From: Rufibacter glacialis
GTDB taxonomy: Bacteria > Bacteroidota > Bacteroidia > Cytophagales > Hymenobacteraceae
Direction: 5' to 3'
DNA: 64,000 nucleotides
NCBI RefSeq assembly: GCF_008271745.1
Contig: NZ_VKKZ01000020.1
Coordinates: forward strand, 310,001-374,000
The position numbers and the translations under genes were made by a program. Below the pieces are notes generated by a model, which was given only the letters and a program-made list of their open reading frames with translations, was not told where the DNA came from and did no database searches. Below are positions 3,832 through 21,040 of this stretch, piece after piece (position 1 is the stretch's first letter; every line of letters begins with the position of its first letter).

Positions 3832-6276
3832 TTAGAAAGTATAGCCCATGGACAAGATAAAATTACGAGGTGCTCCCGGAAAAGCCCGCTGGTAATCATA
3901 GCCGCCTACAAAGTAATATTTGTCTAACAAGTTGTTGGCGTTCAGGCTCAGTTTGAATTTATTCACCCGGTAAAAAGCGGCCGCATTTACCACCGTGTAA
4001 GAAGGCCAGTAGGCCCATATCCCTTCACCAGTAAGCACGTCCTGTACCTGTAGCTCCATCCTCCGGTCTCCCACGTAGTTACCGCCCAAGGCCAGTCCAA
4101 AGCCCTCCAGGGCGGTTCCGGTAAAGGTGTATTTAGCCCACAGACCGGCCGAGTGCCGGGGAGCGTTGGCCGTCTGCCGGCCTTGTTCTCCTTTGAGGTC
4201 AGACGCCACCACTTCGGTGTGGTTGAAGGCGTAGTTCAGGCTGAGGTTCAGGGCAGGCGTTAGGCTTCCGGTGGCCTCTAATTCCGCTCCCTGCGACTTG
4301 ACGCGGCCGTTCTGGCGGTAGATGGGGTTACCCGTTTCCGTCAGTTGGCCGGTGTTTACCAGCGTATTCCGCTTCTCAATGTGGAAGAAAGCAAGCGTGG
4401 CGAACAGGCGCTTTTCCAGGAACTCCCCTTTCAGGCCGGACTCTACCTGGAAGCTGTTCTCACTGTCAAAAGGAGAAGTGCCGCCGTAGTTCTGGAAGTT
4501 CCGTACAAAAGCCGGGTCAATGGGTTTGAAGCCCTGGCTGTAGCTGGCAAAGTAGTTAAGGTTTTCTCGTACTTTGTAGGTCAGGCCCAGCCGGGGGAGC
4601 AATACATTCTGGTGTACCTTTTCTTCCCCGCGGCCATACTGCCGCTGGTCTCGGAAGAACTCATAGCGCAAGCCCAGCAGCACCTTCAGCCTATCGGTTA
4701 CTCCTACCTGGTCTTGCACATAAACCCCGGTGCTGCTGTAGCTGGCGTTCAGATAATCCACGAAGAAGGAAGCCAGGGGCCGCCGGATGTACTTGCTGGG
4801 GTCGCGCAGTTCGTAGGAGGGGTTGTGGAGGTCAAAGGTCAGGGGTACCCGTTTCCCAGCAACTTCCATCTCTCGGGCTTCCCACTGGTGCCCCCGTTGG
4901 TCGGTCTGGAACTTGATGTAGTCCAGGCCGGCCACTAGGTTGTGCTGCACCTTTCCGGTGTTAAAGTTGGCAGAAAAATAGGTGGAAAGGTTATCGGTAT
5001 ACTCGTTCACCTTTTTCTCCAGGTAGCGCAGGTTCATGATGGTATTGGCAGGCGCATCTGCGAAGGTATTGAGCGTGCGGTGCTCACTCAATTCCTCGTG
5101 GTACACAAACTTCAGGTAGGCTGCGTTGAAGGTGAGCCAGTCGGTGAGTTTGTGGTGAAGGGACGCATTCAGTGACACATCGTTGACCCGGTAGTAATCA
5201 CTGGGTTGGCTCAACGTGAAAGACCTGGGCAGCGCGTAGAGATCGCCTCCCCGTATGCCCATGCCGCGGTCCAGGTACCCGTCAAATTTGCTAAAAACCA
5301 GCTCGGCGTTCACGGTGGTTTTGTCCGTGGGCCGGAAGGTCACGGTGGGCGCTATCATGAGGGAACTACGGTCGTTCACTTCCCGGAAGGTCTTAGTGTC
5401 TTCGTAACCGATGTTGAGCCGGTAAAGCAAGCTCTTGTCTTCGTTGAGCGGACCCGTCAGGTCTAAAGTTCCGCGCATGGTGTTAAAGCTACCCACCGAA
5501 AAGGTCATCGCTTTCCGGTTTTCTTCCAGGGGCTTTTTGGTCACCAGGTTCACTGTCCCACCCGGATTGATGTCGCCGAAGAGCGCCGCGCCCGGTCCTT
5601 TGAGCACCTCCACGCTTTCCAGGTTAACGGTCAGCGGCACCCGGAAGAAGCTAGTCCCATACCCGTACCCTGACCGTAGTCCGTTTACTAACCGGTATCC
5701 GGTCTCATAGCCGTTCCGGAAGCCCCGGATGGTGAGGTCATCATAGGAGGAGTATTGGTTCACTCCTGCCAGGTTCTGCACCACGTCCGTCACTAGAAAG
5801 GCTTGCTGGTCTTCCATCAGTTCTTTGGTCACCGAAGAGATGGTCTGCGGCACCTCTATCACGCGGCTTTGCAGCTTAGTACCTACAAAGCTATAATCGT
5901 TCACGTAGTTAGTCTCCTTCCGGCCCGTTACCAGCACCTCCTGCATGGCGTGCGTTTGCCGGTCTAGCTGTATCTCCAACTGCACGTGCTCCATTTGTTC
6001 AGTTAAAGTCAAGGCGATTTCCTTCTCCATCAAGCCTATTCCCTTCACCAGCAGCACATACTTCCCGTAGGGTAGCTGAGCTAGGCGGAAAGTGCCATCG
6101 GGTTGGGTGTGCGCGCCTTTGCCCAGGTTTCCTATGGTGACGGATACGCCTACCAAGGCATTCCCTTGCTTATCCAGCACCTTTCCGCTGACGCTTCCCA
6201 ACCCATTGGCCACCGCAGAAACCCGGAACAGGAGTAATACTAACACTACCCCCATCCATTTCATATTCAAGTACAT
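3832..6276 (-). CDS. TonB-dependent metallophore receptor, candidate nickel uptake
   Basis: This 814-residue outer-membrane receptor has a signal peptide, then a carboxypeptidase-regulatory-like domain (about residues 27-110, SVSGKVLDKQGNALVGVSV). A plug domain follows (about 125-255, including VPQTISSVTKELM and LESVEVLKGPGAALFGDINPGG), then a beta-barrel ending in the aromatic signature YTF. The plug motifs are those of the siderophore-receptor class (FhuA/FecA-like). It is the last gene of a minus-strand run with an ABC importer and lies next to the urease operon. I therefore infer that it brings a nickel chelate across the outer membrane. Iron siderophore uptake is the obvious alternative, because the sequence alone does not show metal specificity. 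The start could be ATG 6276 or the ATG four codons later. Confidence 0.88.
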   Translation of the reverse strand: MYLNMKWMGVVLVLLLFRVSAVANGLGSVSGKVLDKQGNALVGVSVTIGNLGKGAHTQPDGTFRLAQLPYGKYVLLVKGIGLMEKEIALTLTEQMEHVQLEIQLDRQTHAMQEVLVTGRKETNYVNDYSFVGTKLQSRVIEVPQTISSVTKELMEDQQAFLVTDVVQNLAGVNQYSSYDDLTIRGFRNGYETGYRLVNGLRSGYGYGTSFFRVPLTVNLESVEVLKGPGAALFGDINPGGTVNLVTKKPLEENRKAMTFSVGSFNTMRGTLDLTGPLNEDKSLLYRLNIGYEDTKTFREVNDRSSLMIAPTVTFRPTDKTTVNAELVFSKFDGYLDRGMGIRGGDLYALPRSFTLSQPSDYYRVNDVSLNASLHHKLTDWLTFNAAYLKFVYHEELSEHRTLNTFADAPANTIMNLRYLEKKVNEYTDNLSTYFSANFNTGKVQHNLVAGLDYIKFQTDQRGHQWEAREMEVAGKRVPLTFDLHNPSYELRDPSKYIRRPLASFFVDYLNASYSSTGVYVQDQVGVTDRLKVLLGLRYEFFRDQRQYGRGEEKVHQNVLLPRLGLTYKVRENLNYFASYSQGFKPIDPAFVRNFQNYGGTSPFDSENSFQVESGLKGEFLEKRLFATLAFFHIEKRNTLVNTGQLTETGNPIYRQNGRVKSQGAELEATGSLTPALNLSLNYAFNHTEVVASDLKGEQGRQTANAPRHSAGLWAKYTFTGTALEGFGLALGGNYVGDRRMELQVQDVLTGEGIWAYWPSYTVVNAAAFYRVNKFKLSLNANNLLDKYYFVGGYDYQRAFPGAPRNFILSMGYTF

Positions 6277-6300
6277 TTCGCTTAGAACAATTAAAAATGA

Positions 6301-6840
6301 TTAGGTAACCCCATGGCCGTATGCTCTGGCATTCACCGTTTGCAGGAGGGCCAAGTCCATGTGAATGGTGCGGAAAACTTCGGTATCATCCTGACATACC
6401 ATCTGGAACCCCTGCTTCGTCCAGAATTCCTTGGCCCCGGACAAAAACGGGTGGGTGTGCAGGTAGAGCGTTTCTACCCCTCGGCGGGTAGCCTCTTCCT
6501 TCAAGGCATTGACCAGGCTTCTACCCAGCCCCATTTTGCGGTAAGCGGGCTCCACGAATAGTTTCAGCACCTCATTAGCCACCTGCCCGGAATAGTCCAA
6601 GTGGGGAAAACGGTGGTCATACCTTCGCATGCCAATGGTACCTATGATGGTTCCGTCCGCTTCGGAAGCCACCAGAAAAACCGCCTTTTCATCCTGCACA
6701 TAACATGCTTCAAAATTCGCCAGGTCTTCGGGGATCACGCTGTGGTCAATCATGGGGAACAGCCCTTTCCGGAACTCCCGCACGTAGGTCACCAGCTCTG
6801 GTATTCTCCCCTGCTCAATTTCTTTTATCTCTATTTCCAT
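6301..6840 (-). CDS. GNAT family N-acetyltransferase
   Basis: This 179-residue protein has the GNAT fold signature. It shows a central strand followed by the acetyl-CoA pyrophosphate loop (LFVEPAYRKMGLGRSLVNAL, the R/Q-x-x-G-x-G/A pattern, about residues 93-112) and then a YLHTHPFLSGAKEFWTKQGF segment typical of the last helix and strand. It lies six bases after the ABC ATPase gene and 24 bases before the TonB receptor gene, so it is probably in the same transcript. The substrate is unknown. An acetylation step on a secreted chelator would suit the context, but that is only a guess. Confidence 0.85.
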   Translation of the reverse strand: MEIEIKEIEQGRIPELVTYVREFRKGLFPMIDHSVIPEDLANFEACYVQDEKAVFLVASEADGTIIGTIGMRRYDHRFPHLDYSGQVANEVLKLFVEPAYRKMGLGRSLVNALKEEATRRGVETLYLHTHPFLSGAKEFWTKQGFQMVCQDDTEVFRTIHMDLALLQTVNARAYGHGVT

Positions 6841-6846
6841 AGCTCC

Positions 6847-7608
6847 TTAAAGCGTGGGGACTACAATGGTTTTATCCTTTACCTGCACGGCCGTAAACTG
6901 CACGTTGTACACGTAATGCAGCAGCTCGCTGTCATGGTTGCTCAAGTTCGTCTTCACCACCGTTTTGTTCTTCATGAAAAAGCAGTGGTCGGCGTACAGG
7001 AAAGCCAGGTTGGGGTCGTGCATGATGGCAATGACCGTGAACTTATCCTGCGACAGCTTGCGCAGCTTTTCCAGCACAAAGGTCTGGTAGTACACGTCCA
7101 GGTGGTTCGTGGGCTCATCCAACAAAATGATGGACGGGTTCTGCACCAGCACCCTCGCAATCATCACCAGTTGCTGCTCCCCGCCTGAAAGCTCGGTATA
7201 GGGCCGGTTGAGGAGGTGGGTGATTTCCAGTTCCTCAATGGCTTGCTCCACTTTTTCCAGGTCTGCTTTTTTGGGGCTGAAAGAAGAAAAGGCCGCCCGC
7301 CCCGTCAACACCACATCCCGCACCTGAAAGGGGAATACCGATTTATGGAACTGCGGCAGAAACCCCATCAAGGGGGCGCAGTCAGCGAAGGACAATTCCT
7401 TCCGTTCCCGGCCCATCAGCTTCACTGAGCCCTGGCGGTAGGTAGCCATTCCAGAAAGGATATTGAAGAGCGTTGATTTCCCGCTTCCGTTCCTGCCTAG
7501 CACCACCGAGAATTTCCCCTCCGGGAAAGAAACGTTCACCTCCTCCAGAATGGAGGTATTCCCGTAACTGAAACTCAGGTCTCTTACCTCTATCGCCTGC
7601 TTTGTCAT
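6847..7608 (-). CDS. ABC transporter ATP-binding protein (metal-chelate importer)
   Basis: This 253-residue ATPase belongs to the FepC/BtuD/FecE class. It has Walker A GRNGSGKST (about residues 38-46), signature LSGGEQQLVMIARVL (about 140-154), Walker B IILLDEPTNHLD (about 160-171) and the switch histidine in IAIMHDP. The gene overlaps the permease gene upstream by four bases (ATGA), so the two are translationally coupled. Together with the permease and the lipoprotein it forms a complete type II importer. Because the block follows the urease operon on the same strand, nickel is a likely cargo. Iron-siderophore, haem or cobalamin are alternatives. Confidence 0.92.
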   Translation of the reverse strand: MTKQAIEVRDLSFSYGNTSILEEVNVSFPEGKFSVVLGRNGSGKSTLFNILSGMATYRQGSVKLMGRERKELSFADCAPLMGFLPQFHKSVFPFQVRDVVLTGRAAFSSFSPKKADLEKVEQAIEELEITHLLNRPYTELSGGEQQLVMIARVLVQNPSIILLDEPTNHLDVYYQTFVLEKLRKLSQDKFTVIAIMHDPNLAFLYADHCFFMKNKTVVKTNLSNHDSELLHYVYNVQFTAVQVKDKTIVVPTL

Positions 7609-8609
7609 ACCCAGTTTATTTTGTTTTTCTTCATTAAAAAGATAAAGAAAGGCGCCCCCAACAGCATGGTGAAAATCCCGATCGGGATCTCGAACTCCAT
7701 CAAAGACCGGGAGAAATTATCAATGATGACCAGGAAGGAGCCCCCGAAGAGGATATTGGCCGGCATGGCCTTCCGGTTATCTGGCCCCACCATCATGCGG
7801 GTGAGGTGGGGCACAAACAAGCCGTACAAGCTGATGATGCCCGCGGCCGCCACCGAGGAAGAAGTAGTCAGGGTTGCCAACACCACCAGAATGATTTTGT
7901 CCCGGTTGGGGTTGACGCCCACGGCTCTGGCCTCCTGGTCACCCAGGGCCAGCAGGTTTAGCCGCCAGCGCAGCAAGTACATGCCCCCCACGCCCACGGC
8001 GATGGGCAGCGCGGCACTGTTGATCTTGTCCCAGGAGGCGTGGTGCAGGTTGCCCATGGTCCACTGCACAATCGCCTGCAATTTGTATGGGTCGCTGATG
8101 TACTGCACAATGGTGAGCAGGGCGGTGAATATCCCAGACACGATCATGCCCGATAGGATCACCGCTACCAGGGAGGCCTTTTTATCAGAAAAGGCAAAAG
8201 AATAGGTCAGAATCACCGATACCACCCCCAGCACAAAGGCCGAGATATTGATATTGATCAGCGGAAACGCAATGGCCAGTGCCGCCCCAAAGGCCGAGCC
8301 GGAAGAGATGCCCAACACATAAGGGTCTACCAGCGGGTTGCGGAAAATGCCCTGTAGCGCTCCCCCCGAGGAGGCCAAACCAGCCCCAATGATGAAGGTC
8401 AGAAGCACCCTTGGTAGCCGAATGTTTTCAATGATGTTATTGATCATGTTGAGCCTTGTATTGCTCTCCTGGGTACCTGACCAAACCGCTTTGCCCCAAT
8501 CCCAAAAATCCGCCAGACCCACTTCCTGCGAGGGCCCGACGGTCAACGAATACAGCAAGAGCGGAATAGGCAGGCCATAAATGACGAATGCGATCAGGGC
8601 CTTTCTCAT
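7605..8609 (-). CDS. FecCD/BtuC family ABC permease
   Basis: This 334-residue inner-membrane permease has about ten hydrophobic helices. It carries the family signatures RLPRVLLTFIIGAGLASSGGALQGIFRNPLVDPYVLGISSGSAFGA in pieces near residues 68-112, and a C-terminal GLFVPHLTRMMVGPDNRKAMP segment (about 262-283), where the coupling helix contacts the ATPase. It overlaps the binding-protein gene by four bases upstream and the ATPase gene by four bases downstream. The length is normal for the family. It presumably works as a dimer with the ATPase encoded next. Confidence 0.93.
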   Translation of the reverse strand: MRKALIAFVIYGLPIPLLLYSLTVGPSQEVGLADFWDWGKAVWSGTQESNTRLNMINNIIENIRLPRVLLTFIIGAGLASSGGALQGIFRNPLVDPYVLGISSGSAFGAALAIAFPLININISAFVLGVVSVILTYSFAFSDKKASLVAVILSGMIVSGIFTALLTIVQYISDPYKLQAIVQWTMGNLHHASWDKINSAALPIAVGVGGMYLLRWRLNLLALGDQEARAVGVNPNRDKIILVVLATLTTSSSVAAAGIISLYGLFVPHLTRMMVGPDNRKAMPANILFGGSFLVIIDNFSRSLMEFEIPIGIFTMLLGAPFFIFLMKKNKINWV

Positions 8610-9616
8610 TGGAACAAAGCCGTAGCTTTGGCCCCATATAGGTTCATCATGATCTCCTTGCGGCTCTCTTCCAAATCAAAGCTTCCTTTGTCAGCGTAGC
8701 AGAACTTGTTCAAGAGAATAGCGGCACTGAGAATCTTTAAGGTGTGGGGGTCATAATAGAAGGAAGGCTCCAGGACATACACCTCCTTGTTCTGGACGGC
8801 TTTCAACACCCTTAGCTCCTTTTTGCTGTAAACCGCCTGTGGGTCTGTGCCCCAGAGAAGGATCAGGTCTGGGTCCCAGGAGATCAGCGTCTCCGGGTTC
8901 ACGTTAGGCTGGTCTATGGCAAAGGTGCAGGCATTCACGGCCCCGGCCAGCTCAAGGCAATCGTTCATCCGGCTGTTTCTGCCCGAGGTAGAGTAAATGC
9001 GCCCGCCCGACCACGCATAGTACACCGATTTTTTGGGCGAGATATCCTGGGTTTTCGCTTTGATCTCCTCCAGTTTCGATTGCGTATAGGCCAGGAGTTC
9101 CTTTGCCCGAGCCTGCGTGCCGGTTAGTTTTCCAATTCCTTCCAGTTCCAGGAACAGCTCTTCGTTGGTATTGGAGGACACAGCGAATACATTGATGTCC
9201 AGGTTTTCCAGCAGGCTGATCGCATCGGTCTGCCGGGCATCCACAATGACTAAGTCTGGGTTGAGTGCTATCACGCTTTCCATGTTGGCCGAATTCTCCC
9301 AGTTCCCGGGAGTAGCCAACTCTTTCCTGGCAATGCGCGGATCCAGCTTGCTGAAATAATGAAACGATTCAGGATTTGAGTAAATCCGGCTCTGGATTCC
9401 TATGATGGTATGCTCGGCATTCAGCATGTACATGCCATCCAGGGCAGCCTGAAAGAGCACGATGACCCGCTGGGCCGGCTCCTGCAGGCGCACTTCCTTC
9501 CCCCGGATATCAGTGGCCACGATGTCCTTTTCAGACCTTGTGTTTTCCTGGCCCTGCTTGTTGCAGGAACTGAGCAACAGGAGGCACACGCTTAAAAAAG
9601 TTATTACTTTAGTCAT
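8606..9616 (-). CDS. Periplasmic metal-chelate binding lipoprotein of ABC importer
   Basis: This 336-residue protein has a lipoprotein signal (VCLLLLSSC, lipobox Cys at residue 18) and a PeriplasmicBP_2/TroA-like fold. The motif RVIVLFQAALDGMYML lies at about residues 48-63, a NPDLVIVDARQ strand at about 119-129 and DPDLILLWG at about 250-258. The segment YSTSGRNSRMNDCLELAGAVN is the usual ligand-domain signature of this family. It is the first gene of the importer run, 467 bases beyond the end of the urease operon. A nickel or nickelophore role follows from context only. Confidence 0.88.
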   Translation of the reverse strand: MTKVITFLSVCLLLLSSCNKQGQENTRSEKDIVATDIRGKEVRLQEPAQRVIVLFQAALDGMYMLNAEHTIIGIQSRIYSNPESFHYFSKLDPRIARKELATPGNWENSANMESVIALNPDLVIVDARQTDAISLLENLDINVFAVSSNTNEELFLELEGIGKLTGTQARAKELLAYTQSKLEEIKAKTQDISPKKSVYYAWSGGRIYSTSGRNSRMNDCLELAGAVNACTFAIDQPNVNPETLISWDPDLILLWGTDPQAVYSKKELRVLKAVQNKEVYVLEPSFYYDPHTLKILSAAILLNKFCYADKGSFDLEESRKEIMMNLYGAKATALFQ

Positions 9617-10082: not shown

Positions 10083-10544
10083 TCAGGCTATGTTTCCGTA
10101 GGCTTTCACCATTTGGTAAGGGTACAGCACCCGCTCCTCTATGGTGGGGAAGAAATTTCCGCTCTGGAGCATCTGGTACAAATACCCGTCATAGGCCACG
10201 CAAACCTCTTGTTCATCGGTCATGAAAATGGGCACGTGTTTGTTGCCTATCTCAAAACAGAGGGTACCCACTTCCTGCAAGCTGTTGGGGCGCAGCACAA
10301 TGCAATCGCAGGGCTTTATGCGAAGAAGAATGGCCATTTCCTCTGACAGATAAAGCACATCTCCATCCTGAAAAGTACCTCTGTCCGCCCGGTTGATGAG
10401 CACCTGCTGGCCGCCCACGGTCTTGCGCCGCAGCCGCGACTTGGCCGTTTCATGCCACTCCACTTCCAGCACATCAACGCTTCTCTGGCCTACCTCCAGG
10501 CCTCTGCCCAGCGCAGCTGAAATTTCAATGGGTTGATGCATCAT
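10083..10544 (-). CDS. ureE: Second UreE-like urease nickel metallochaperone
   Basis: This 153-residue UreE paralogue is read from the ATG at 10544 (the next codon is also ATG). The frame can be extended upstream, but the extension lies inside hypB. It shares with the first UreE (13978-14457) the core KTxxGQxV...DGDVLYL...PCDCIVLRPN...GTLCFEIGNKHVPIF. His103 in GNKH matches the interdomain nickel ligand His96 of Klebsiella UreE. Like the first copy it lacks a His-rich tail. It is the last gene of the operon, 30 bases after hypB, so it is grouped with the Hyp proteins rather than with ureF/ureG. It may hand nickel between HypA/HypB and the UreEFGD complex. The family is clear; the special role is an inference. 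Confidence 0.85.
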   Translation of the reverse strand: MMHQPIEISAALGRGLEVGQRSVDVLEVEWHETAKSRLRRKTVGGQQVLINRADRGTFQDGDVLYLSEEMAILLRIKPCDCIVLRPNSLQEVGTLCFEIGNKHVPIFMTDEQEVCVAYDGYLYQMLQSGNFFPTIEERVLYPYQMVKAYGNIA

Positions 10545-10573
10545 CGTCAAAAGAAAAAGGTTTAATGGATGAT

Positions 10574-11290
10574 CTAGGCGGTCTCTAAGCTGGCTTTCTT
10601 CTCGGCTACTTTGGCCATCAACCAATCGCACCATTCGTCCATGCCATCGCCTTTCAGGCTGCTGATGGCCATCACGTCAATGGCGGGGTTTACCTCCCGG
10701 GCATCCTGGGTCACGGCTTCCACCGAGAACGGCACGTAAGGCAGCAGGTCTGCCTTAGAAACCACCATCAGCTCGCTGGTCAGGAACATGCGCGGGTACT
10801 TCTTGGGCTTGTCATCACCCTCTGTGGCCGCCAACACCGTCACCCGGATGTCCTCGCCCAGGTCAAAGGCCGCCGGACACACCAGGTTGCCCACGTTCTC
10901 GATAAAAAGCAGATCCACGCCGGTCAGGTCAATGTGATCCAGGGCCTGGAGAATCATCTGGGCCTCAATGTGGCACATGCCGCCCGTCACGATCTGCAGC
11001 GCGTTGATCCCTACCTCTTTCATGCGCACCGCGTCGCGGTCGGTTTCCGGGTCACCCACCAGCACGGCCAGGTTCAGCTTGTCGCTCAGGCGCTTGCCCG
11101 TTTCCTGCATGAGAGTGGTCTTGCCGCTCCCCGGCGACGAACACACGTTGATGACCAGCACATCGGACAGTTTCTCGCGGATGGCTTTGGCTACGAAGTC
11201 GTTAGCCTTCAATAGGTTCAGCGTGGTATTATCACATTGGATGGAACCTACGGACATTTGGTTGCTTTTTGGATATTTTGGCGTACTCAT
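10574..11290 (-). CDS. hypB: HypB, GTPase nickel chaperone
   Basis: This 238-residue G3E/SIMIBI GTPase has the P-loop CSSPGSGKTTL (residues 50-60), TGGMCHIEA (Cys106, His107), ENVGNLVCPA (Cys138) and the guanine-specificity motif VSKAD. Cys106, His107 and Cys138 correspond to the metal site of the G domain known in E. coli HypB. The N-terminal CxxCGC motif of E. coli and a His-rich stretch are both absent, so it would transfer rather than store nickel. HypB normally delivers nickel to NiFe-hydrogenase, but no hydrogenase gene is visible here. In Helicobacter pylori HypA/HypB also serve urease maturation, and the operon position argues for that role here. Confidence 0.95.
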   Translation of the reverse strand: MSTPKYPKSNQMSVGSIQCDNTTLNLLKANDFVAKAIREKLSDVLVINVCSSPGSGKTTLMQETGKRLSDKLNLAVLVGDPETDRDAVRMKEVGINALQIVTGGMCHIEAQMILQALDHIDLTGVDLLFIENVGNLVCPAAFDLGEDIRVTVLAATEGDDKPKKYPRMFLTSELMVVSKADLLPYVPFSVEAVTQDAREVNPAIDVMAISSLKGDGMDEWCDWLMAKVAEKKASLETA

Positions 11291-11309: not shown

Positions 11310-11654
11310 TTAATTCCCGAAGAATTCTACTTTACTTATCTGTAACTCCTCTCCCTGCACAATCTTTTTGGAGGGAGTTCCGCAGGCGCATACGAACCGG
11401 TGCCGCACAACTTCAAAGTCTTGCCCGCAGGCATCGCAATGCGCGATGATGGGTAGCTGCACCACCTCCAGTTCAATGTCGGCCAGACCGGGTTCCTCCA
11501 AAATCAAGGCCTCAAAAGCATTCTGGATCAGGATGGGTTGGATGTTACTCAGCAAACCTGCCTCCATCTGCACCTTGGTGATCTGGTCAAACTTATCTGG
11601 GTAGGTTTCCTGCAAGGTGTCAAACACGTTCCTCACAATGGATATCTCATGCAT
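11310..11654 (-). CDS. hypA: HypA, nickel-binding maturation protein
   Basis: This 114-residue protein starts MHE, the N-terminal nickel-binding motif of HypA. Its zinc site is Cys73-x2-Cys76 and Cys89-x-Cys91, so the second pair is CxC instead of the usual CxxC. It sits 19 bases before hypB and 63 bases after ureD. HypA passes nickel to HypB and, in Helicobacter, to UreE. Its placement between ureD and hypB suggests that the pair works on urease in this organism. Confidence 0.94.
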   Translation of the reverse strand: MHEISIVRNVFDTLQETYPDKFDQITKVQMEAGLLSNIQPILIQNAFEALILEEPGLADIELEVVQLPIIAHCDACGQDFEVVRHRFVCACGTPSKKIVQGEELQISKVEFFGN

Positions 11655-11717: not shown

Positions 11718-12626
11718 CTAAACCGCGTCTACTATCAGTGGCTCAGCAACAGTCTCTAAAGCCTCTGCTTGTGCTTCGGGTGCCAGCGCATCTACCACGG
11801 CTAACTCCTCGCCTGCCTCGTTTTCCTCGTCCTCAGGCTGCGCCTTGTGTTTGGTGAACTCCCAGCACAGTTGCCCCATGGTACTGAGCCAGTCATGCAG
11901 CACTCCTCCGTCTTTGCCCATGCCCCGCAACATGACCGCATTGGGAGCGCATTGCGTGAAGCCAAAGTCTATGTGGTCAAATTTCTCTACCAGAATCTCG
12001 TCCAGTTCGGCTTTCAACTCCTCTGCATAAGGCGACACATAAATCAAAGTGGCCTGGTGGGTATAGCCCTCATAGAAAAGGATAGATTCCATGGGCTGCC
12101 GGCCCGGCTCCAGCAACTGATTGTCCAGCAAGACCAGCTTTTTGCCGCAGGTTACCTTGGTGACGCTGTGGAACCGCTTGAAGGCAAACGACTCCCCGGA
12201 ATACACCCTGCCTGAGGCAATAATGTCGCCCCAGATCAGCGTGGCGCTGTCATCCATCTGGATCTCGTTGACGGTCTTGAAGATGGAATTGGCGAAGGGC
12301 GTTACCGGATGCGGAATGTATTTGAACACACCACCTTTTTTAATATTCACGGTCGTTTTCTGCACCGCCCCCTTTTTCATAGGATGCAGTTTGCTGAACG
12401 ACTGCGTGAACAGCTTGAGGTGGGCATTTTCGTGCACATCTACGGTAATGGTGACTTCGTCCTCATCCATGAGCCCCGGGGAGGAACTCATCAGGATCAG
12501 TTCCAGGTGCTTCTGCAAATGACGGGAACCATAATGCACCACCTTGTAGGGTGCATTATGGTAGCTGTCTTTCAACAAGGTAAGCTCCCCCTCTTTCTCC
12601 GCGTTTATGACTATTTTACTAAGCAT
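11718..12626 (-). CDS. ureD: Urease accessory protein UreD (UreH)
   Basis: UreD is the scaffold that binds apo-urease together with UreF and UreG and forms a tunnel for nickel. I chose the ATG at 12626, which overlaps the ureG stop in an eight-base ATGCTTAG junction. An ATG 18 bases upstream is possible. The family core ([65 protein letters not shown]) is intact. The last 40 or so residues form an unusual acidic, Ala-rich tail (many Glu and Asp), which makes the protein longer than typical UreD. Confidence 0.94.
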
Positions 12627-13245
12627 GCTCTTCTTGTTTTTCAAGTAAGGCGTAGGTCTTGATCCACTGAATCACCTCGTCCAGTCCCTCTAGCTTCATC
12701 AGGTTGGTGAAAATGAAGGGACGCTCCCCCCGCATTTTTTTAGAATCCCGGTCCATCATGGCCAGGTCGGCGTTCACGTAGGGGGCCAGGTCGGTTTTGT
12801 TGATGATGAGCAAGTCTGAGCGCGTGATGCCCGGTCCGCCTTTACGAGGCATCTTGTCTCCTTCGGCCACGTCAATCACGAAGATGGTCACGTCGGCCAA
12901 ATCGGGGCTGAAAGTGGCGGAAATGTTGTCGCCGCCGCTCTCCACAAAAACGATCTCGGTATCTGGGTGGCGTTCCACCAGCTCTTCCACGGCCTCAATG
13001 TTCATGGATGCGTCTTCGCGAATGGCGGTGTGGGGGCAGCCGCCAGTCTCTACGCCAATGATCCGGTCGGCCGGAAGGCTGGAATTCTTGATCAGGAAAT
13101 CAGCATCTTCCCGGGTGTAAATGTCATTCGTTACCACACAGATGCTATAGTCACCTGACAGTTTGCGGGTCAACCTTTCTATCAAAGCCGTCTTTCCAGA
13201 GCCTACCGGCCCTGCCACCCCTATTCTCACATGTGTTTTTGACAT
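12619..13245 (-). CDS. ureG: Urease accessory GTPase UreG
   Basis: This 208-residue GTPase has P-loop GPVGSGKT (residues 11-18), the metal-binding CPH motif in [15 protein letters not shown] (about 68-82), [15 protein letters not shown] and NKTDLAPYV. All catalytic and nickel-binding residues known for the family are present. It couples GTP hydrolysis to nickel delivery into the UreA/B/C apoprotein. The end overlaps ureD by eight bases, and ureF lies 36 bases upstream. Confidence 0.97.
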
Positions 13246-13281: not shown

Positions 13282-13968
13282 TTAAGAAATGTAAAGTCTT
13301 GAATACTGCTTCTCATGCTGCATGCACCGGATCTCCTGGCCTATGCAGCAAAGCCCCACCAGTTCCTCGTCCAGTTCCTCCTGCTTCTCCACCAGTTGGC
13401 TGATGGTAGGCTGCAGGTTAAAAAGGATCTTCTGGGCATCGTTCTGGCTGATGGGCACCAGCTTGGCACAGTTGGTTACTATGCCGTTGAGGGTATTGTA
13501 ATAAAAGGCCATGAGGGCATCTTTCAGAGAAATACCGTGGGCAAAGGCATACATGGCAAAAGCCACCGGGTAGTGCCCGTGCAGCTTTCCTTCCTGGATT
13601 TTGCTCAGGTAGTTGCTGCAGCGTTTCACTTCCTGCAAACCCTGCGTGAGCTTCAGGAACCGGATGGCTAACTTCTTGCTGGCCATCCTGATCTCAGAAG
13701 GAGCCTTGAGGGCCGTGATCAACTCATCCAGTTTCTGGAATTCCCGGGCTGATTTTTTTGCTTCCAGCAGCTTCCAGGCCATTTGCAGGAAGGCGGCGTC
13801 ATTGTAGTAAATGTTATGCGAGAGCATGTCTCGGGCATAGACGGTGGCAGAGGGCGTATCTTTTACGATGCCCTGGCTTACATAAGACTCCAGCCCGTAC
13901 GACTGCGTGAAGCCCCCAATAGGGAACATGGAATCGTTGATCTGGAGCAGGGTTAACAATGGCTGCAT
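13282..13968 (-). CDS. ureF: Urease accessory protein UreF
   Basis: This 228-residue all-helical protein opens with LLTLLQINDSMFPIGGFTQSYGLESYV, the UreF signature in which PIGGFTQSxGLE is diagnostic. A GHYPVAFAMYAFAHGI helix lies near residue 130. UreF bridges UreD and UreG and gates GTP hydrolysis during nickel insertion. It starts ten bases after ureE. Confidence 0.93.
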   Translation of the reverse strand: MQPLLTLLQINDSMFPIGGFTQSYGLESYVSQGIVKDTPSATVYARDMLSHNIYYNDAAFLQMAWKLLEAKKSAREFQKLDELITALKAPSEIRMASKKLAIRFLKLTQGLQEVKRCSNYLSKIQEGKLHGHYPVAFAMYAFAHGISLKDALMAFYYNTLNGIVTNCAKLVPISQNDAQKILFNLQPTISQLVEKQEELDEELVGLCCIGQEIRCMQHEKQYSRLYIS

Positions 13969-13977
13969 GTGCGTACC

Positions 13978-14457
13978 TTATTTGATGGTGATGACCCGAT
14001 TGTATTTGTTTTCATGTCTGCGCACGGTCAAGGCGTGCGTCTTCAATAGCTTTCTCACTTCCCTTCGGGGTTGGTAGCCATATTTTTCCAGTAGCCGGTA
14101 GAGCGGGTTCTCAAACTCCACACTTACCTCGGCCTCCTCATTGATGAAGATGGGAATGTGTTTGTTCCCTATTTCAAAGCAGATGGTGCCCATCTCCCTG
14201 AAGTTTTGCGGTTTGAAGACAATGCACTCGCAGGGCAGGATATTGACCGCGATGGCCCGCTCCTGGTCCAGGTACAGCAGGTCGCCGTCTTCCAGCGGAG
14301 TTGTATCTTTCCGGATACCTACCTCCTGACCCGCCCTGGTTTTCTTCCGGAGCGTGGTCTTGCCGGTGTCAAACCAATCCAGGTCCAGCACATCCACGGT
14401 TCTGCCGTTTGTCTCTGTGCCTGCCAGATTGCCTAGTATCTTTTCTACCAGAATCAT
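13978..14457 (-). CDS. ureE: UreE, urease nickel metallochaperone (first copy)
   Basis: This 159-residue protein has an N-terminal peptide-binding domain (RTVDVLDLDWFDTGKTTLRKKTRAGQ in parts, residues 19-44) and a C-terminal metal-binding domain with GNKHIPIF. His100 matches the conserved UreE nickel ligand. The C-terminus is basic with only a few His, so it is not a His-tail storage form. It sits in the classical place between ureC and ureF. A paralogue lies at the end of the same operon. Confidence 0.93.
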   Translation of the reverse strand: MILVEKILGNLAGTETNGRTVDVLDLDWFDTGKTTLRKKTRAGQEVGIRKDTTPLEDGDLLYLDQERAIAVNILPCECIVFKPQNFREMGTICFEIGNKHIPIFINEEAEVSVEFENPLYRLLEKYGYQPRREVRKLLKTHALTVRRHENKYNRVITIK

Positions 14458-14519: not shown

Positions 14520-16355
14520 CTAGAACAGGAAGTAGCGCTGCGCCATGGGCACCACACTCAGGGGCTCACAGGTCAGCACCACGCCATCGGCGGTTACGGT
14601 GTAGGTTTCCGGATCCACGGCCAGCTTTGGCATGGCGTTGTTATGGATCATATCCTTCTTGGTCACCTTGCGGCAACCCTTCACCGGCAGCGAGTTTTTG
14701 GACAAGCCCAGGCGCCCGATGTTGCCGTTTTCAAGCGAAATACCGGAAACGAAGTTGAAACCGGCGCGTCTGACAGCCTTACCCAGCGTACCGAACATAG
14801 GGCGGTAGATCACAGGCTGCGGCAGGGAAATGGAGCCGTTGGGGTCACCCATCTTCGCGCCTACAATGAAACCGTTTTTCAGGATCATGTCAGGCTTCAC
14901 CCCAAACAGAGCAGTATCCCATAACACCAGATCCGCATACTTGCCTACTTCAATAGACCCCACGTAGTGGTCTATTCCCTGGGCCAAGGCCGCATTGATG
15001 GTATACTTGGCGATGTAGCGCTTCACGCGGAAGTTATCGGAGTCTTTGCCTTTATCCGGGGCCAAAGGTCCTCTCTGGATCTTCATCTTGTGGGCCGTTT
15101 GCCAGGTTCTGCAAATCACCTCTCCCACCCGACCCATGGCCTGGCTGTCAGAAGACATGATACTGAACACGCCCATGTCCTGCAGGATATCCTCGGCGGC
15201 AATGGTGGCCGGACGGATTCGGGAATCAGCGAAAGCCACATCCTCCGGGATCTTCTTGTCCAGGTGGTGCACGGACATCAGCATGTCCAGGTGCTCATCT
15301 ACTGTATTGATGGTAAAAGGCTTGGTGGGGTTGGTAGAGGCCGGCAGCACGTTGGGGTACATGGCGATCTTGATGATGTCCGGCGCGTGCCCACCCCCGG
15401 CACCCTCGGTATGGAAGGTGTGGATGGTGCGGCCATTTATGGCTCTCATGGTGTCTTCCAGGAAGCCCGCCTCGTTCAGCGTATCGGTGTGGATGGCAAT
15501 CTGCACATCATACTTATCAGCTACCCGCAGGGCGTTGTCAATGGTGGAAGGCGTGGCTCCCCAGTCCTCGTGGATTTTCAGGCCCAGGGCTCCGGCTTCC
15601 ACATGCTCAGCGGCCGCCTTGAAAGAAGAGGTGTTGCCTTTCCCGAAGAACCCTAAGTTCATAGGAGTACTTTCAGAGGCCTCCAGCATGCTTTCAATCC
15701 ACCATTTACCCGGAGTAACCGTGGTGGCCAGGGTACCGTCGGCCGGACCTGTACCCCCGCCAATCATGGTGGTGGTACCGCTGTACAGGGCCACATCAAT
15801 CTGCTGGGGGGCAATGAAGTGGATGTGCGTGTCAATGGCACCTGCCGTCACAATCTTGCCGGCGCAGCCATGTACTTCCGTAGAAGCCCCAATGATCATG
15901 CCTTTGGTCACCCCTTCCTGGGTATCTGGGTTACCGGCTTTGCCAATGCCCACGATCTTGCCGTTCTTGATACCTATATCACCCTTGACGATGCCCCAGT
16001 GGTCTATGATGATGGCGTTGGTCAACACCAGATCCAGCACATCGTCCTGGGTGGCCGAGGTGGATTGGCCCATACCGTCCCGGATGGTTTTCCCGCCCCC
16101 GAACTTGTTTTCCTCCCCGTACACGTTGAAGTCCTTCTCTATCTCAATGAACAGCTCGGTATCTGCCAGGCGCACCTTATCCCCCGTGGTTGGGCCGAAA
16201 AGGGCGGCGTAGCGGTCTCTGGGGATATAGAGTTCGCCATTAATATATTTTACAGAAGAAGAGTCGCTTCCCAGCGCGTCCAGCCCCAGAAGGGAAAGCC
16301 CGGCCGTGGAAAGGCCAACTACTTTTATCCATTCGCGTCTACTCCAATTTGACAT
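14520..16355 (-). CDS. ureC: Urease subunit alpha with N-terminal twin-arginine signal-like extension
   Basis: This 611-residue catalytic subunit hydrolyses urea to ammonia and carbamate. All nickel ligands are present: His177 and His179 (DTHIH), carbamylated Lys260 (GLKIHEDWG), His289, His315 and Asp403, plus His262 and His363. In contrast, the flap cysteine (Cys319 of Klebsiella) is Val362 in MSVHHLD. About 40 extra residues precede the normal N-terminus. They hold SRREWIK at residues 5-11 and then a hydrophobic run [14 protein letters not shown], which fits the Tat consensus S/T-R-R-x-F-L-K. There is no other Met before residue 95 and no GTG or TTG codon in the extension, so a shorter start is not available. 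I infer export by Tat, or a Tat-type membrane anchor, with UreA and UreB carried along. A cytoplasmic enzyme with a vestigial tag is the alternative. Confidence 0.97.
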
Positions 16356-16381: not shown

Positions 16382-16807
16382 CTATTTCTTTTTAGCAGGC
16401 TTAGGAGCATTGGGGGCCTTGGTGGTAGAAGCTCCCTTGTATCCCTCCTTCTGCGCCTTTTTAAGGGCATTTTCGCGGACGCTCTTCTTGGTCACATCCC
16501 CTTCGGTGAGGTTATTGAAACCATGGATGATTCTCTGCCCGCCAATCTCTACCAGGATCACATTCTTCTTCTCTCCCGGTTCAAACCGTACCGCCGTACT
16601 GGCAGGGATATTCAGGCGCATGCCAATGGTTGCGGCCCGGTCAAACTCCAGGGCTTTATTGGTCTCAAAGAAATGATAGTGGGAACCTACCTGGATAGGA
16701 CGATCACCGGTGTTGGCCACTGTCACATGAAGGGTCTTGCCCTTCTCATTCATTTTAATCTCCCCCTTTTTCAGGATGTATTCACCTGGTACCATAGTTG
16801 TGGTCAA
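16382..16807 (-). CDS. ureB: Urease subunit beta
   Basis: This 141-residue structural subunit starts [17 protein letters not shown]. It carries the family motifs [17 protein letters not shown] and RVF-like [18 protein letters not shown]. The tail after about residue 115 is long and basic (Lys, Ala and Pro rich, ending PAKKK), longer than the compact beta subunit of Klebsiella. It has no signal peptide of its own, so if UreC is exported by Tat this subunit would have to travel with it. It is 26 bases upstream of ureC. Confidence 0.96.
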
Positions 16808-16826: not shown

Positions 16827-17132
16827 TTAGCGGATAGGGTGGTCAACCGTAATGAGCTTCACCCCATCCGGGAAAGTTGCCTCAATCTGTACAAAGTGAA
16901 GCATCTCGGGCACCCCCTGCATTACCTGGTTCTTTTTCAGCAGCTGAGCGCCGTATTTCATGAGTTCGGCCACGGTTTTCTTTCCGTCGCGGGCTTCTTC
17001 CATCAAAACGCCACAGATGTAGGCAACGGACTCAGGGTAGTTGAGCTTTACACCTCTTTTCAACCTTTTTGCCGCCAGCTCTCCAGCCATATGCAGCAAT
17101 AGTTTCTCGGTTTCAACTGGGTTTAAGTGCAT
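16827..17132 (-). CDS. ureA: Urease subunit gamma
   Basis: This 101-residue gamma subunit has the typical start [23 protein letters not shown] (in part), then [10 protein letters not shown] and the C-terminal [17 protein letters not shown] region. Its length is that of a separate bacterial gamma subunit (about 100 residues). It has no signal peptide. It is the second gene of the operon, 30 bases after the porin gene. Confidence 0.97.
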
Positions 17133-17162: not shown

Positions 17163-18560
17163 TTACAGAAATGTCTGAAACTGGACGATAAACTCTCCCC
17201 GGTTACCGTCAATTTGATCGGTGGCCAGGTAGTTAGGCCGGAGCGAGTATTGGAAGGATACCTTGGCGTTGTGCTGCTGAATGAACAGGTTGCTGCCAAA
17301 ATCCCAGTAGTTTCCCCCCTTCTCCAGGGCCTCCAGGTTCTTGCGGGTATAGGCCATAAAGGGCTGAAGCCGAAGCTTGTCCTGTTGCCCTAGGCGGGGC
17401 AGCAAAAGGCCCGCCTGCGAGTAGTAAATGTCACCAGTTCCCTGCATGGGACGGGCGTTGCCGGGACCGGAGATGGATCTTGGTCCGTCATAGGCCGGGT
17501 TTGCCGTGCCCAGGTTCATGGTGCCAGAGTGGCGCAGGTAGTTCGGCCCGAAATCATAGCGGTATGCCCCGGAATAGGACGTCAGGGCCATTTCTTTGGA
17601 ACCCAGGTAAAAGGGCAGGTCTATAAAAACATCACCCGCCAAAAGAGCGATGTCATGGGATTTCAGGTGGTCGTTCTGCAAGCTTTTGGTTCCGTCTTGT
17701 TGGGTATAGAACCCGACTCCCAGGTTGAACATTCGCTTCTGCCCCAGGTAGGTACCCACCTTGAAAGGCAACGTGTTAGACTCCTGGTCCAGGAACTGGT
17801 ACTCAAAGTAGCCTGCCACCGAAGGTTTGCTTACTCCGTTGTTATCCACGGCCACATTTTCCTGCTCCGGCACCAGGTTGGTGGCAAAAGGTTTGTTCAC
17901 GCTCAGCCGGTATTCCAGCTTGTCTACCTTGCCTTTGGCATATACCCCATACATGCGCACGAACTGGTCGCTCTGGTCCACGGTGGGGAAAGAGAAGATA
18001 GGAGAATCAAGGGTGAGGAAGTTGGTGGTGCTGGCCATGGTGAGCCTAGACACCCCCAGCCAGTAATGCAACCCGGCCCCAAAAGTCAGGGAGAAGGTAT
18101 TTTTCTCCCCCGTTAGAGCATTGACCGCCGGGAAAAGGGTATACTCACTCGTAAAGTCATGGAAGAACATGCCCGGCTTTTTTCCGGCTCCGTAATTGCC
18201 GGTGCCACCGCTTCCGGCAGCGCCGCCCCCTACAAAGGTCTGGCTATTGATGCCAAAGTGGGTCATGATCATGAACCGCGGCGACAGTTGCGCCATGGCC
18301 AGCAGGCGCAGGCGGCGGGCCCCAATGTCAAAAGACCTTTCCTGGGGGGTATTGTTTACCAGGGTGCCCGGGTTCTGCTCTGTGTGACGGGCCCAGATCT
18401 GGTTCCAGAACATAAAGCGCACATAGTAGTCTTCCTTGTCATTCAGTTTGATTTTAAGGCCACCGTTATACTCGGGCGCATTTTGCCCCTGTACAGATAA
18501 CACCCCTACACAATAAGCACCTACCGCACACAGAATAGTCTTTTTGAAACGCCTGAACAT
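17163..18560 (-). CDS. Outer-membrane porin, first gene of urease operon
   Basis: This 465-residue protein has a signal peptide (ILCAVGAYCVGVLSVQGQ) and then alternating aromatic/polar strands of a beta-barrel, ending GEFIVQFQTFL with a C-terminal aromatic residue. It resembles phosphate-selective or general porins, though I cannot name a subfamily. There is a Gly-rich loop near residue 120. The stop codon is only 30 bases from the ureA start, on the same strand, and no terminator lies between, so it is probably the first cistron. A channel for urea (or a nickel compound) would fit an exported urease; this is inference from position. Confidence 0.82.
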   Translation of the reverse strand: MFRRFKKTILCAVGAYCVGVLSVQGQNAPEYNGGLKIKLNDKEDYYVRFMFWNQIWARHTEQNPGTLVNNTPQERSFDIGARRLRLLAMAQLSPRFMIMTHFGINSQTFVGGGAAGSGGTGNYGAGKKPGMFFHDFTSEYTLFPAVNALTGEKNTFSLTFGAGLHYWLGVSRLTMASTTNFLTLDSPIFSFPTVDQSDQFVRMYGVYAKGKVDKLEYRLSVNKPFATNLVPEQENVAVDNNGVSKPSVAGYFEYQFLDQESNTLPFKVGTYLGQKRMFNLGVGFYTQQDGTKSLQNDHLKSHDIALLAGDVFIDLPFYLGSKEMALTSYSGAYRYDFGPNYLRHSGTMNLGTANPAYDGPRSISGPGNARPMQGTGDIYYSQAGLLLPRLGQQDKLRLQPFMAYTRKNLEALEKGGNYWDFGSNLFIQQHNAKVSFQYSLRPNYLATDQIDGNRGEFIVQFQTFL

Positions 18561-18966: not shown

Positions 18967-20361
18967 CTATGCCTCCTGGCCTTCCCTTTGCAGTAATTTT
19001 GCCACGGGCAGCATGATCATAACCGTGGTGCCTTTTCCCTGTTTGGAGTCCACCTGAATATCCCCGTTGTGCATTCTGATGATCTCTAAGGCAAGGGGAA
19101 GCCCAATACCAAATCCTTCAAATCCCTCGGTATTGGAAGCTCTGAAATATGGGGTGAAAATTAATTCTTTTTCCTCCTCCGGAATGCCGATGCCGTAGTC
19201 CGTTACCCGAACGCGGATGGTATCTGTTTGGGAGATCAGCTTTACCCATACCTCTTTGTTACCGGAGTATTTAAACCCATTCAGGATGATGTTGGAAAGG
19301 GCCAGGCTCAATAAATGCTCATTGGCACTGACCATAAGCTGAGATTCATTCTCCGGCAGGTCACTGTAATCGATCTTAAGCCTGAAGCTCCCGTCCATCT
19401 TACCCACCGTCTGCAGCACCTCATGCAAAACCTCGTCCAGACGGGTGACTTTCCAGGTGTCTTTTTGGCCGCTCCCTGTTACTTTGACCAGCTCCAGCAA
19501 AGTGTTGACGGTATGTTTCAGCTTCACGGTTTCCTGCATGATCATTTGTAGCGAATGCTTGGCTTTATGGCCTGGTTCAATGGCAGCCAGGGCGATTTCT
19601 GCCTCTCCGGCAATGATGGTCAGCGGAGTGCGTAAGGAATGGGACGTATTGCTTACATAATCCTGCTGGGCCTTGAAAGCGGATTCTATCCGGTTCAGCA
19701 TCTCATTGAGGGTGCTCTGGAGCTCACTGATCTCATCAAGGCTATGCTCCTTGTCCAGCCGGTCGTTCAGGTTAAAGGCATTGATGCTGTTTACCTTCTG
19801 AATGATCTGGACCATGGGCCCGAACAGCTTTTTAGAGAAAAAGATGCTGGTCAGGGTCATCAATAAGAGAGCTCCCAGATAGGTAGCGGCCAGCGTGGTT
19901 TTCAGCCTTTTGCGGTAGGCATCCCCCTCATAGTCGCGGGCAGTGGAAATAACCAGAATGTCATCTTCGCTGTTGCTGTTATGGATAAAGAGCCCCACAT
20001 AATACACCCCATCCTGGTAATGGTGGGCGCGTCCGTTTTTGATGGCTTCCCAGTAAAAGGCTTTTTCCAAAGGAAGCGATTCAGGGAATTTAAGGTTGGT
20101 TTTATCCCTCCTTACCCTGATAATGTACTCCTCTTCGTCTTCCAGGTGTTGCAGGATGCTGTTTTTGATTTCATAGTAATCCTCTGCTTTCTCCTGCTGC
20201 AATACCGCCCTGGCCACAATAGTGGCACTGTTTTCCATGCTAAGGTAAAACCCGTGCTTCCGGTAGCCCGATGACATGGAATACATCACCAAGTTGATGC
20301 CTAACAAAATCAAGGCCATGAGGCCCGTGAAGATCAGGATAAGGGAATATTGTAATTTCAT
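18967..20361 (-). CDS. Sensor histidine kinase
   Basis: This 464-residue membrane kinase has TM1 at about residues 8-28, a periplasmic sensor of about 125 residues, TM2 at about 155-175 and a HAMP region. The HisKA box is VSNTSHSLRTPLT (His241) and the HATPase_c domain has N, G1 (DYGIGIPEEE) and G2 (GFGIGLPLA) boxes. The residue after the phospho-accepting His is Ser242, not the usual Glu or Asp. The overall design is like CusS-type metal or envelope sensors. One base separates it from the response regulator gene. The target may be the porin-urease operon that follows. Confidence 0.92.
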   Translation of the reverse strand: MKLQYSLILIFTGLMALILLGINLVMYSMSSGYRKHGFYLSMENSATIVARAVLQQEKAEDYYEIKNSILQHLEDEEEYIIRVRRDKTNLKFPESLPLEKAFYWEAIKNGRAHHYQDGVYYVGLFIHNSNSEDDILVISTARDYEGDAYRKRLKTTLAATYLGALLLMTLTSIFFSKKLFGPMVQIIQKVNSINAFNLNDRLDKEHSLDEISELQSTLNEMLNRIESAFKAQQDYVSNTSHSLRTPLTIIAGEAEIALAAIEPGHKAKHSLQMIMQETVKLKHTVNTLLELVKVTGSGQKDTWKVTRLDEVLHEVLQTVGKMDGSFRLKIDYSDLPENESQLMVSANEHLLSLALSNIILNGFKYSGNKEVWVKLISQTDTIRVRVTDYGIGIPEEEKELIFTPYFRASNTEGFEGFGIGLPLALEIIRMHNGDIQVDSKQGKGTTVMIMLPVAKLLQREGQEA

Positions 20362-20362
20362 G

Positions 20363-21040
20363 TTACTGGGCGCGCATCACATAGCCCATACCTACCACCG
20401 TATGGATCAGCTTGGGGCTAAAGTCTTTGTCAATTTTCTTCCGCAGGTAGTTGATGTAAACATCTACCACGTTGGTTCCCATGTCAAGATCTGCTCCCCA
20501 CACATTCTCCAGTATATCCAGCCGAGGCAAGACCTTCCTTTTGTTTTTCAGGAGGTACTCCAGCAGCCTGAACTCAGTGCCAGTCAAAGAGATAAGCTTG
20601 TTGTTCCGGGTGACTTCCAGGGTGTCTAAGTCTACCTTCAGATCAGCGATGGTCATGATGTTCTGCTCAGAAACGTTTCTGTTGGACCTCCTGATCAGGC
20701 TTTGCATCCTAACCCGGAGTTCGGCCAGGTTGAAGGGCTTGACCATGTAATCATCCGCGATGCTGTTGAAGCCCTCCACAATATTTTCAGTAGAGCCCAG
20801 GGCCGACAGGATAAGGATAGGTGTGGTACGGTCTGATTCCCTGATCTGCTTACAGACCTCCAAACCATTGAGGCCAGGCACCATAATATCCAGGATAATT
20901 ATGTCATAATGGTTGAGGCCCACCATCTTCAGGGCTGTGTACCCGTCCATGGCCACAGAAAACTCATAGCCTTCGCCATCTAGCCCTCTTTTTATAAGGG
21001 ACACCACTTTGGGCTCATCCTCTAACAGTAAAACCTTCAT
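20363..21040 (-). CDS. OmpR/PhoB-type response regulator
   Basis: This 225-residue protein has a receiver domain (acidic pocket ED at residues 7-8, phospho-Asp51 in IILDIMVPG, Lys in MVKPF) and a C-terminal winged helix (LTGTEFRLLEYLLKNKRKVLPR, then VDVYINYLRKKID and a GMGYVM wing). It is the first gene of the two-gene operon with the kinase. Direct repeats typical of its binding class occur in front of the porin gene. Confidence 0.95.
   Translation of the reverse strand: MKVLLLEDEPKVVSLIKRGLDGEGYEFSVAMDGYTALKMVGLNHYDIIILDIMVPGLNGLEVCKQIRESDRTTPILILSALGSTENIVEGFNSIADDYMVKPFNLAELRVRMQSLIRRSNRNVSEQNIMTIADLKVDLDTLEVTRNNKLISLTGTEFRLLEYLLKNKRKVLPRLDILENVWGADLDMGTNVVDVYINYLRKKIDKDFSPKLIHTVVGMGYVMRAQ

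Follow-up and report, generated by a model that had tools for sequence, protein, structure and literature searches.

The usual view places ureases in the cytoplasm, and the Tat system exports enzymes that are already folded and loaded with their cofactor. The urease cluster described here lies in a stretch of 64,000 nucleotides of Rufibacter glacialis DNA (the window), and the N-terminus of its alpha subunit, UreC, raises the question of whether a urease can itself be a Tat substrate.

The N-terminal signal of UreC

Residues 5–11 of the window UreC read SRREWIK and are followed by an uncharged stretch of 14 residues. The first-pass annotation had placed this motif and its hydrophobic run ahead of the conserved core and had seen no alternative start codon between the two, and both statements held. 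The urease alpha models align to the protein only from residue 43–44 on, with scores of 929.8 bits for TIGR01792 (curated cut-off 680) and 190 bits for PF00449 (cut-off 23), and the alignments of 32 solved urease sequences (E up to 1e-50) start at residue 42–45. The sole ATG, GTG or TTG among the first 60 codons is codon 1. Residues H177, H179, K260, H289, H315, H363, R379, and D403 do not vary across two alignments, one of 11 and one of 22 sequences; we take these eight to be the nickel ligands, the carbamylated lysine, the catalytic histidine, and other residues of the active site.

The R. glacialis genome contains three ureC genes. One of the two others (C23) encodes a protein 80% identical to the window UreC and has the signal (MANWNRREWIK...); the product of the other (C2) is 67% identical, lacks the signal, begins MSLPIDKVRYAQLFGP, and is 38 residues shorter. 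The N-terminus of a urease is able to bear an extension, as indicated by the 840-residue chains of the solved ureases 3la4 and 4g7e, presumably jack bean and other plant or fused ureases, in which about 270 residues precede the part corresponding to UreC. With 22 sequences as input, the predicted structure of UreC had a mean pLDDT of 66.2, with values of about 50 over the first 30 residues, and was set aside as poor. The N-terminal signal on the window UreC is confirmed as real and beyond chance.

The genes of the cluster lie on the minus strand in the order regulator and kinase, porin-like gene, ureABC, ureE, ureF, ureG, ureD, hypA, hypB, second ureE, and uptake genes (Table 1). UreA, UreB, and the window's accessory proteins show no signal of the UreC type where they begin. 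The porin-like protein has no Pfam match and a weak match to ExtI (NF040900, 1.7e-7, below the cut-off). The uptake genes probably serve a metal or a metallophore, the metal presumably being nickel.

Table 1. Features of the urease cluster, in positions of the window
Feature	Position	Strand	Basis
Histidine kinase and response regulator	18967..21040	-	Sequence reading
Outer-membrane porin-like protein, N-terminus of Sec type as judged by eye, 30 bp ahead of ureA	17163..18560	-	ORF, weak ExtI match
ureA, 101 residues, without signal	16827..17132	-	Pfam
ureB, without signal; ORF opens at TTG 16807, likely ATG start at 16795; lysine-rich basic C-terminal tail, no Cys	16382..16807	-	Pfam
ureC, urease alpha subunit, 611 residues, N-terminal Tat-type signal	14520..16355	-	ORF, ATG start, urease models
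Tat-type signal, residues 1–30, ends DALGS; possible signal peptidase site between ALG and S	16266..16355	-	Predicted cleavage site
Twin-arginine codons AGA CGC (R6 R7)	16335..16340	-	Read in sequence
ureE	13978..14457	-	Own model, sequence reading, position
ureF	13282..13968	-	Own model, sequence reading, position
ureG	12619..13245	-	Own model, sequence reading, position
ureD	11718..12644	-	PF01774
hypA-like nickel chaperone	11310..11654	-	Sequence reading
hypB-like nickel GTPase	10574..11290	-	PF02492 cobW/HypB/UreG
Second ureE-like gene	10083..10634	-	Own UreE model
TonB receptor, GNAT protein, ABC ATPase, FecCD-type permease, periplasmic binding protein	3832..9616	-	Profile matches for binding protein and TonB receptor; rest sequence reading

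Conservation and origin of the signal

A set of 177 distinct near-full UreC proteins was assigned by nearest core, with the N-terminus ignored, giving 48 proteins in the window's clade and 129 others. All 48 carry W-x-R-R-x-W-[IM]-K at the N-terminus. RRxW is found in none of the 129 others, and neither is a pair of arginines followed by ten uncharged residues ahead of the core (0/129). The motif reads WNRREWIK in 32 proteins and WNRRDWIK in 11, with five others; position by position, W, I or M, and K are each found in 48 of 48 signals, and F stands after RRx in none. The uncharged stretch behind the motif is 12–23 residues long in the 48 proteins (12–19 in 47 of them), and this region is modestly hydrophobic, as judged from the hydropathy of 11 proteins and the length over 48. 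Two further loci, L101 at a contig end and L108 with a broken frame, have the motif and stand outside these counts; in L108, from Chitinophaga sp. E66, the signal is present (about 9001–9205) and the reading frame breaks just behind it.

The codon for R7 is CGC in 24, AGA in 22, and CGT in 1 of 47 proteins, a set chosen by RRxW itself, and that for R6 is always AGA; the varied R7 codons indicate that the arginine is conserved and not the DNA. Across 14 proteins of the window's order, pN/pS is 0.137 for the signal, 0.030 for the motif, and 0.130 for the core. The Sphingobacteriaceae give 0.191 for the signal versus 0.076 for the core in the 616-residue set (n = 15) and 0.274 versus 0.100 in the 617-residue set (n = 10). 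The signal is kept, at a rate of change that in the Sphingobacteriaceae exceeds that of the enzyme. In two Chitinophagaceae (L106 and L107; Chitinophaga eiseniae and Pseudoflavitalea) the signals end in AYA-Q and AFA-Q, and elsewhere the −3/−1 column is mostly [AGS]-L-[GA], with V-T-G in L071. Together, the A-x-A sites and this recurrent pattern would favor cleavage of the signal.

A tree of 90 UreC cores, thinned by similarity and with the signal columns excluded, was built from 35 of the 48 signal-bearing proteins, 47 signal-less proteins of Bacteroidota, and 8 others as outgroup (quick IQ-TREE, LG+G4, without bootstrap). All 35 signal-bearing cores fall on one side of one branch (SH-aLRT 99), for which a single state change suffices; one outgroup row is placed on the wrong side of the tree. 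This grouping indicates that the signal, which is old and of single origin, goes with a distinct type of core.

Distribution of signal-bearing UreC

That the extension would be conserved in relatives, as the first-pass annotation had considered, proved true for several families but not within the window's own genus. Of 204 genomes of the family searched, 109 have any match to UreC, some of these being weak and to other amidohydrolases. Thirteen matches in 10 genomes, R. glacialis included, span residues 1–611, all with at least 80% identity. None of the remaining matches among those listed starts before residue 24, and those close to full length have at most 70% identity. The nine other signal-bearing genomes of the family all belong to one other genus, and the 15 further genomes by which the window's own genus is represented among the matches listed all lack a signal-bearing UreC, which points to either sideways arrival in R. 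glacialis or loss by its kin. A sample of 390 genomes of the order added two signal-bearing cases, in two other families. In a sample of 395 genomes of the phylum, 13 with a urease match, the signal was found in R. glacialis only, suggesting that the trait is concentrated in few families.

Urease is present in 42 of 301 genomes of the Sphingobacteriaceae, the family of S. multivorum. A signal-bearing UreC is found in 32 of them (31 over residues 1–611 and one split across two contigs) and a signal-less UreC in 26, with both types in 16, as in R. glacialis. Among 244 genomes of the Chitinophagaceae, the family of C. eiseniae, 26 have urease and 2 are signal-bearing. A pattern scan with one genome per species recovered, among the matches listed, Pontibacter chinhatensis, Sphingobacterium, Pedobacter, Chitinophaga, and Pseudoflavitalea. 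In plasmid records, the best 10 of 164 with a match align from residue 44–46, without the signal region.

Tat machinery and fit to Tat signal models

The first-pass reading had proposed a look for tatABC, and the R. glacialis genome contains tatC and one tatA/B-type gene. TatC is found in all 23 signal-bearing genomes tested; TatC and a tatA/B-type gene are each also found in 11 of 14 control genomes, which were not genomes with signal-less urease only, and so common a protein is a weak test of export. In the TatC of R. glacialis (L004 1411–2307), HLEVLR stands at the site of E. coli Glu15, the first-arginine contact, and the positions of Phe94, Tyr100, and Glu103 look kept by comparison with the E. 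coli sequence.

The curated Tat-signal model TIGR01409 does not match the UreC signals at E up to 10, probably because of the W where F is usual, and the other NCBIfam models likewise give no match. In the R. glacialis genome, TIGR01409 has 20 matches at E up to 10, 11 of them above the cut-off, with UreC not among them, and the other readable Tat candidates are nearly all RRxF. An RRxW-like pattern matches 20 times in this genome, and of these hits only the two signal-bearing ureC have the motif close to a start with a hydrophobic run behind it. According to the portion of PMC13323110 available to us, the consensus F of the E. coli Tat signal sits in a pocket of TatC. The accessible portion of PMC7317946 describes only RR as essential, with hydrophobicity mattering at the F position, so W may be acceptable there in principle.

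Gene neighborhood of signal-bearing and signal-less ureases

A urea transporter (PF03253) was sought within 8 kb of ureC in 66 hand-chosen genomes, which are not a random draw. It lies beside none of 38 signal-bearing ureC genes and 17 of 42 signal-less ones (Fisher 2.8e-6, a value that overstates the difference because the loci are related). Two of the 17 linked transporters are broken (G898, G089), and three signal-bearing genomes have a transporter elsewhere (G903, G1181, G1140). In 11 genomes with both ureases, the transporter lies by the signal-less copy in six and by the signal-bearing copy in none.

Neighbors on the same strand within 9 kb were surveyed with our own models at 43 signal-bearing and 42 signal-less loci, with 0/43 versus 17/42 for the urea transporter. 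A porin is found at 38 of the 43 signal-bearing loci (34 whole, meaning 300 residues or more, and 4 fragments; absent from 5) versus 5 of the 42 signal-less ones, counts obtained with porin models built mostly from signal-bearing loci, the resulting bias of which was roughly checked. A crude look for other β-barrel-like proteins at the signal-less loci gave 25 candidates, many the size of TonB receptors and few the size of porins. Signal-bearing and signal-less loci likewise differ in relatives of the kinase (34/43 versus 0/42) and the regulator (34/43 versus 3/42), HypA (36/43 versus 5/42), HypB (35/43 versus 8/42), and the NicO-type transporter (1/43 versus 18/42). When near-identical UreC proteins are clustered, the urea transporter is found in 0/18 versus 11/25 and the porin in 15/18 versus 3/25. 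The kind of porin differs, being weakly ExtI-like in the window's order and Porin_O_P in the Sphingobacteriaceae; that of the Chitinophagaceae is also Porin_O_P, at another place in the cluster. The porin was rejected as a clean divider, since 5 of the 42 signal-less loci have one, two of them (L233, L236) together with a urea transporter; the transporter is the cleaner divider. Independently of the signal, the lack of a linked inner-membrane urea transporter together with the linked porin fits a periplasmic enzyme.

One of the four porin fragments, of 72 residues, is that of the second signal-bearing cluster of R. glacialis (L005 6237–6455); this cluster contains a NicO-type transporter, and ABC uptake genes were not found in it. 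The signal-less clusters of R. glacialis and its relatives G148 and G157 (L006 5173–9851, L050, L245) have ureF and ureD, and no ureE or ureG was found within 9 kb, so these clusters may borrow UreG from the signal-bearing ones. In two-urease genomes of the Sphingobacterium family (L299–L303 versus L093–L099, L331), the signal-less urease is accompanied by hypB, in some cases hypA, a second ureE, and metal ABC genes, and hypA and hypB were not found in the signal-bearing cluster; the two ureases may thus share a nickel supply. A NikR-type nickel regulator ends the signal-bearing Chitinophagaceae cluster (L106 15982–16383, PF08753; L107 16215–16616, own model).

Composition of the urease subunits

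The flap cysteine corresponds to Cys319 of the Klebsiella enzyme and is too distant to be the general acid, according to the accessible part of PMC7433671. It is replaced by Val in 18 of the 48 signal-bearing UreC proteins, the window's included, with losses in three places of the tree, and is kept in the other 30 and in all 128 readable signal-less proteins. A branch-length test gives a probability of 0.019 for these losses by chance, a modest value, and the loss was rejected as a general mark of export, given that only this part of the signal-bearing proteins has undergone it. The mean number of core cysteines is 4.6 in the 48 signal-bearing UreC proteins versus 7.6 in 71 signal-less ones of Bacteroidota, and 4.3 versus 5.7 when only representatives of the sister clade are compared. 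UreB has 0.07 cysteines at 43 signal-bearing loci versus 0.88 at 40 signal-less loci, whereas UreA shows the opposite trend (0.72 versus 0.35). The C-terminal tail of UreB, long and lysine-rich in the signal-bearing type (16382–16510 at the 3' end of the window ureB), has a mean net charge of +6.1 versus +0.4 in the signal-less type. This make-up fits life outside the cytoplasm in part.

Discussion

Judged from the signal and its genomic context, the window very probably encodes a periplasmic urease that is exported by the Tat pathway. In such a route, UreEFGD and HypA/HypB, all without signals, would load nickel in the cytoplasm, and folded UreC would enter the Tat translocase via its N-terminal RR signal, taking along the signal-less UreA and UreB. 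The signal is probably removed by signal peptidase behind [AGS]-L-[GA], or behind A-Y-A or A-F-A in the Chitinophagaceae. Urea would cross the outer membrane, helped by the cluster-encoded porin, and would be hydrolyzed in the periplasm, so that no inner-membrane urea importer would be needed. The computed mass is 92.5 kDa for the UreABC heterotrimer and 277.6 kDa for the usual trimer of it; a trimer of about 278 kDa would be very large for a Tat cargo.

The Tat system might also use the signal without cutting it, a sub-form of Tat export that would leave the urease anchored by its N-terminus at the periplasmic face of the inner membrane. The Sphingobacteriaceae signals, with their amphipathic-looking end (such as LDALGLEKLGLDK) and mostly without a classic A-x-A site, are in line with such an anchor. 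We nevertheless consider anchoring unlikely, given the A-Y-A and A-F-A sites in C. eiseniae and Pseudoflavitalea, the mostly [AGS]-L-[GA] residues at the same column in other signals, and an uncharged stretch that, at 12–19 residues in all but one of the 48 proteins, is in many cases short for anchoring in a membrane. Less probable again is a reading without export, in which the extension docks the urease to the cytoplasmic side of the membrane or to a partner and is only incidentally like a Tat signal. Such docking would account for the lack of any score with the Tat-signal model, the W instead of F, and the conservation, beyond the needs of Tat, of the first W and mostly of the N ahead of RR, but it is at odds with an RR that is kept beside a variable x, a hydrophobic stretch that varies in length and sequence, the cleavage-like sites, the absence of linked urea importers, and the presence of linked porins.

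There is very little chance that the extension is untranslated or an artefact of the start site. By eye, no strong ribosome-binding site precedes the ureC ATG; such a lack is common in this phylum. Most other members have further in-frame start codons within the extension, but the window copy has none, and the frame and residues of the extension are under purifying selection across several families.

The predicted Tat-exported urease can be set beside three known systems. It has the same subunits, the same kind of accessory set, and the same active-site residues as UreABC of the Klebsiella aerogenes type, from which it differs in the Tat-type signal, the basic UreB tail, the linked porin and kinase/regulator, and the lack of a linked urea importer in any locus examined. 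NiFe hydrogenases are exported by Tat with the cofactor inserted inside the cell and a signal-less partner carried along. The window urease resembles them in bearing the signal on one subunit and, presumably, in receiving its cofactor inside the cell, but it is a different enzyme and would carry two partner subunits, possibly as a trimer of heterotrimers. The surface urease of Helicobacter pylori acts outside the cytoplasm, for which lysis is the usual explanation, and we know of no export signal on that enzyme. The window urease, as predicted from genes alone, would share this site of action, and differs in that its ureC encodes a signal. In the accessible open-licence literature, with most subscription journals and bioRxiv preprints outside its coverage, we found neither an account of a urease that has a Tat signal or is periplasmic nor a localization experiment on such a urease; the available parts of PMC11327836, PMC7433671, PMC6497324, PMC13323110, and PMC7317946 describe no Tat-signal urease.

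It is possible, if rather doubtful, that the Bacteroidota contain a class of periplasmic ureases, often beside a cytoplasmic urease, in which Tat moves the nickel-loaded, assembled enzyme up to the size of the UreABC trimer. If true, few folded Tat cargoes would match this trimer of about 278 kDa in size. An exported urease would offer a naturally occurring Tat cargo that brings two passenger subunits along, of interest for size limits and cofactor proofreading, genomes with both urease forms would serve as natural controls, and RRxW would be a type of Tat signal overlooked by a standard model. Current thinking has urease acting in the cytoplasm and depending on the entry of urea into the cell, and an exported form would alter the view of urea nitrogen use in Bacteroidota, as well as that of the alkalinization of their surroundings and the access of urease inhibitors.
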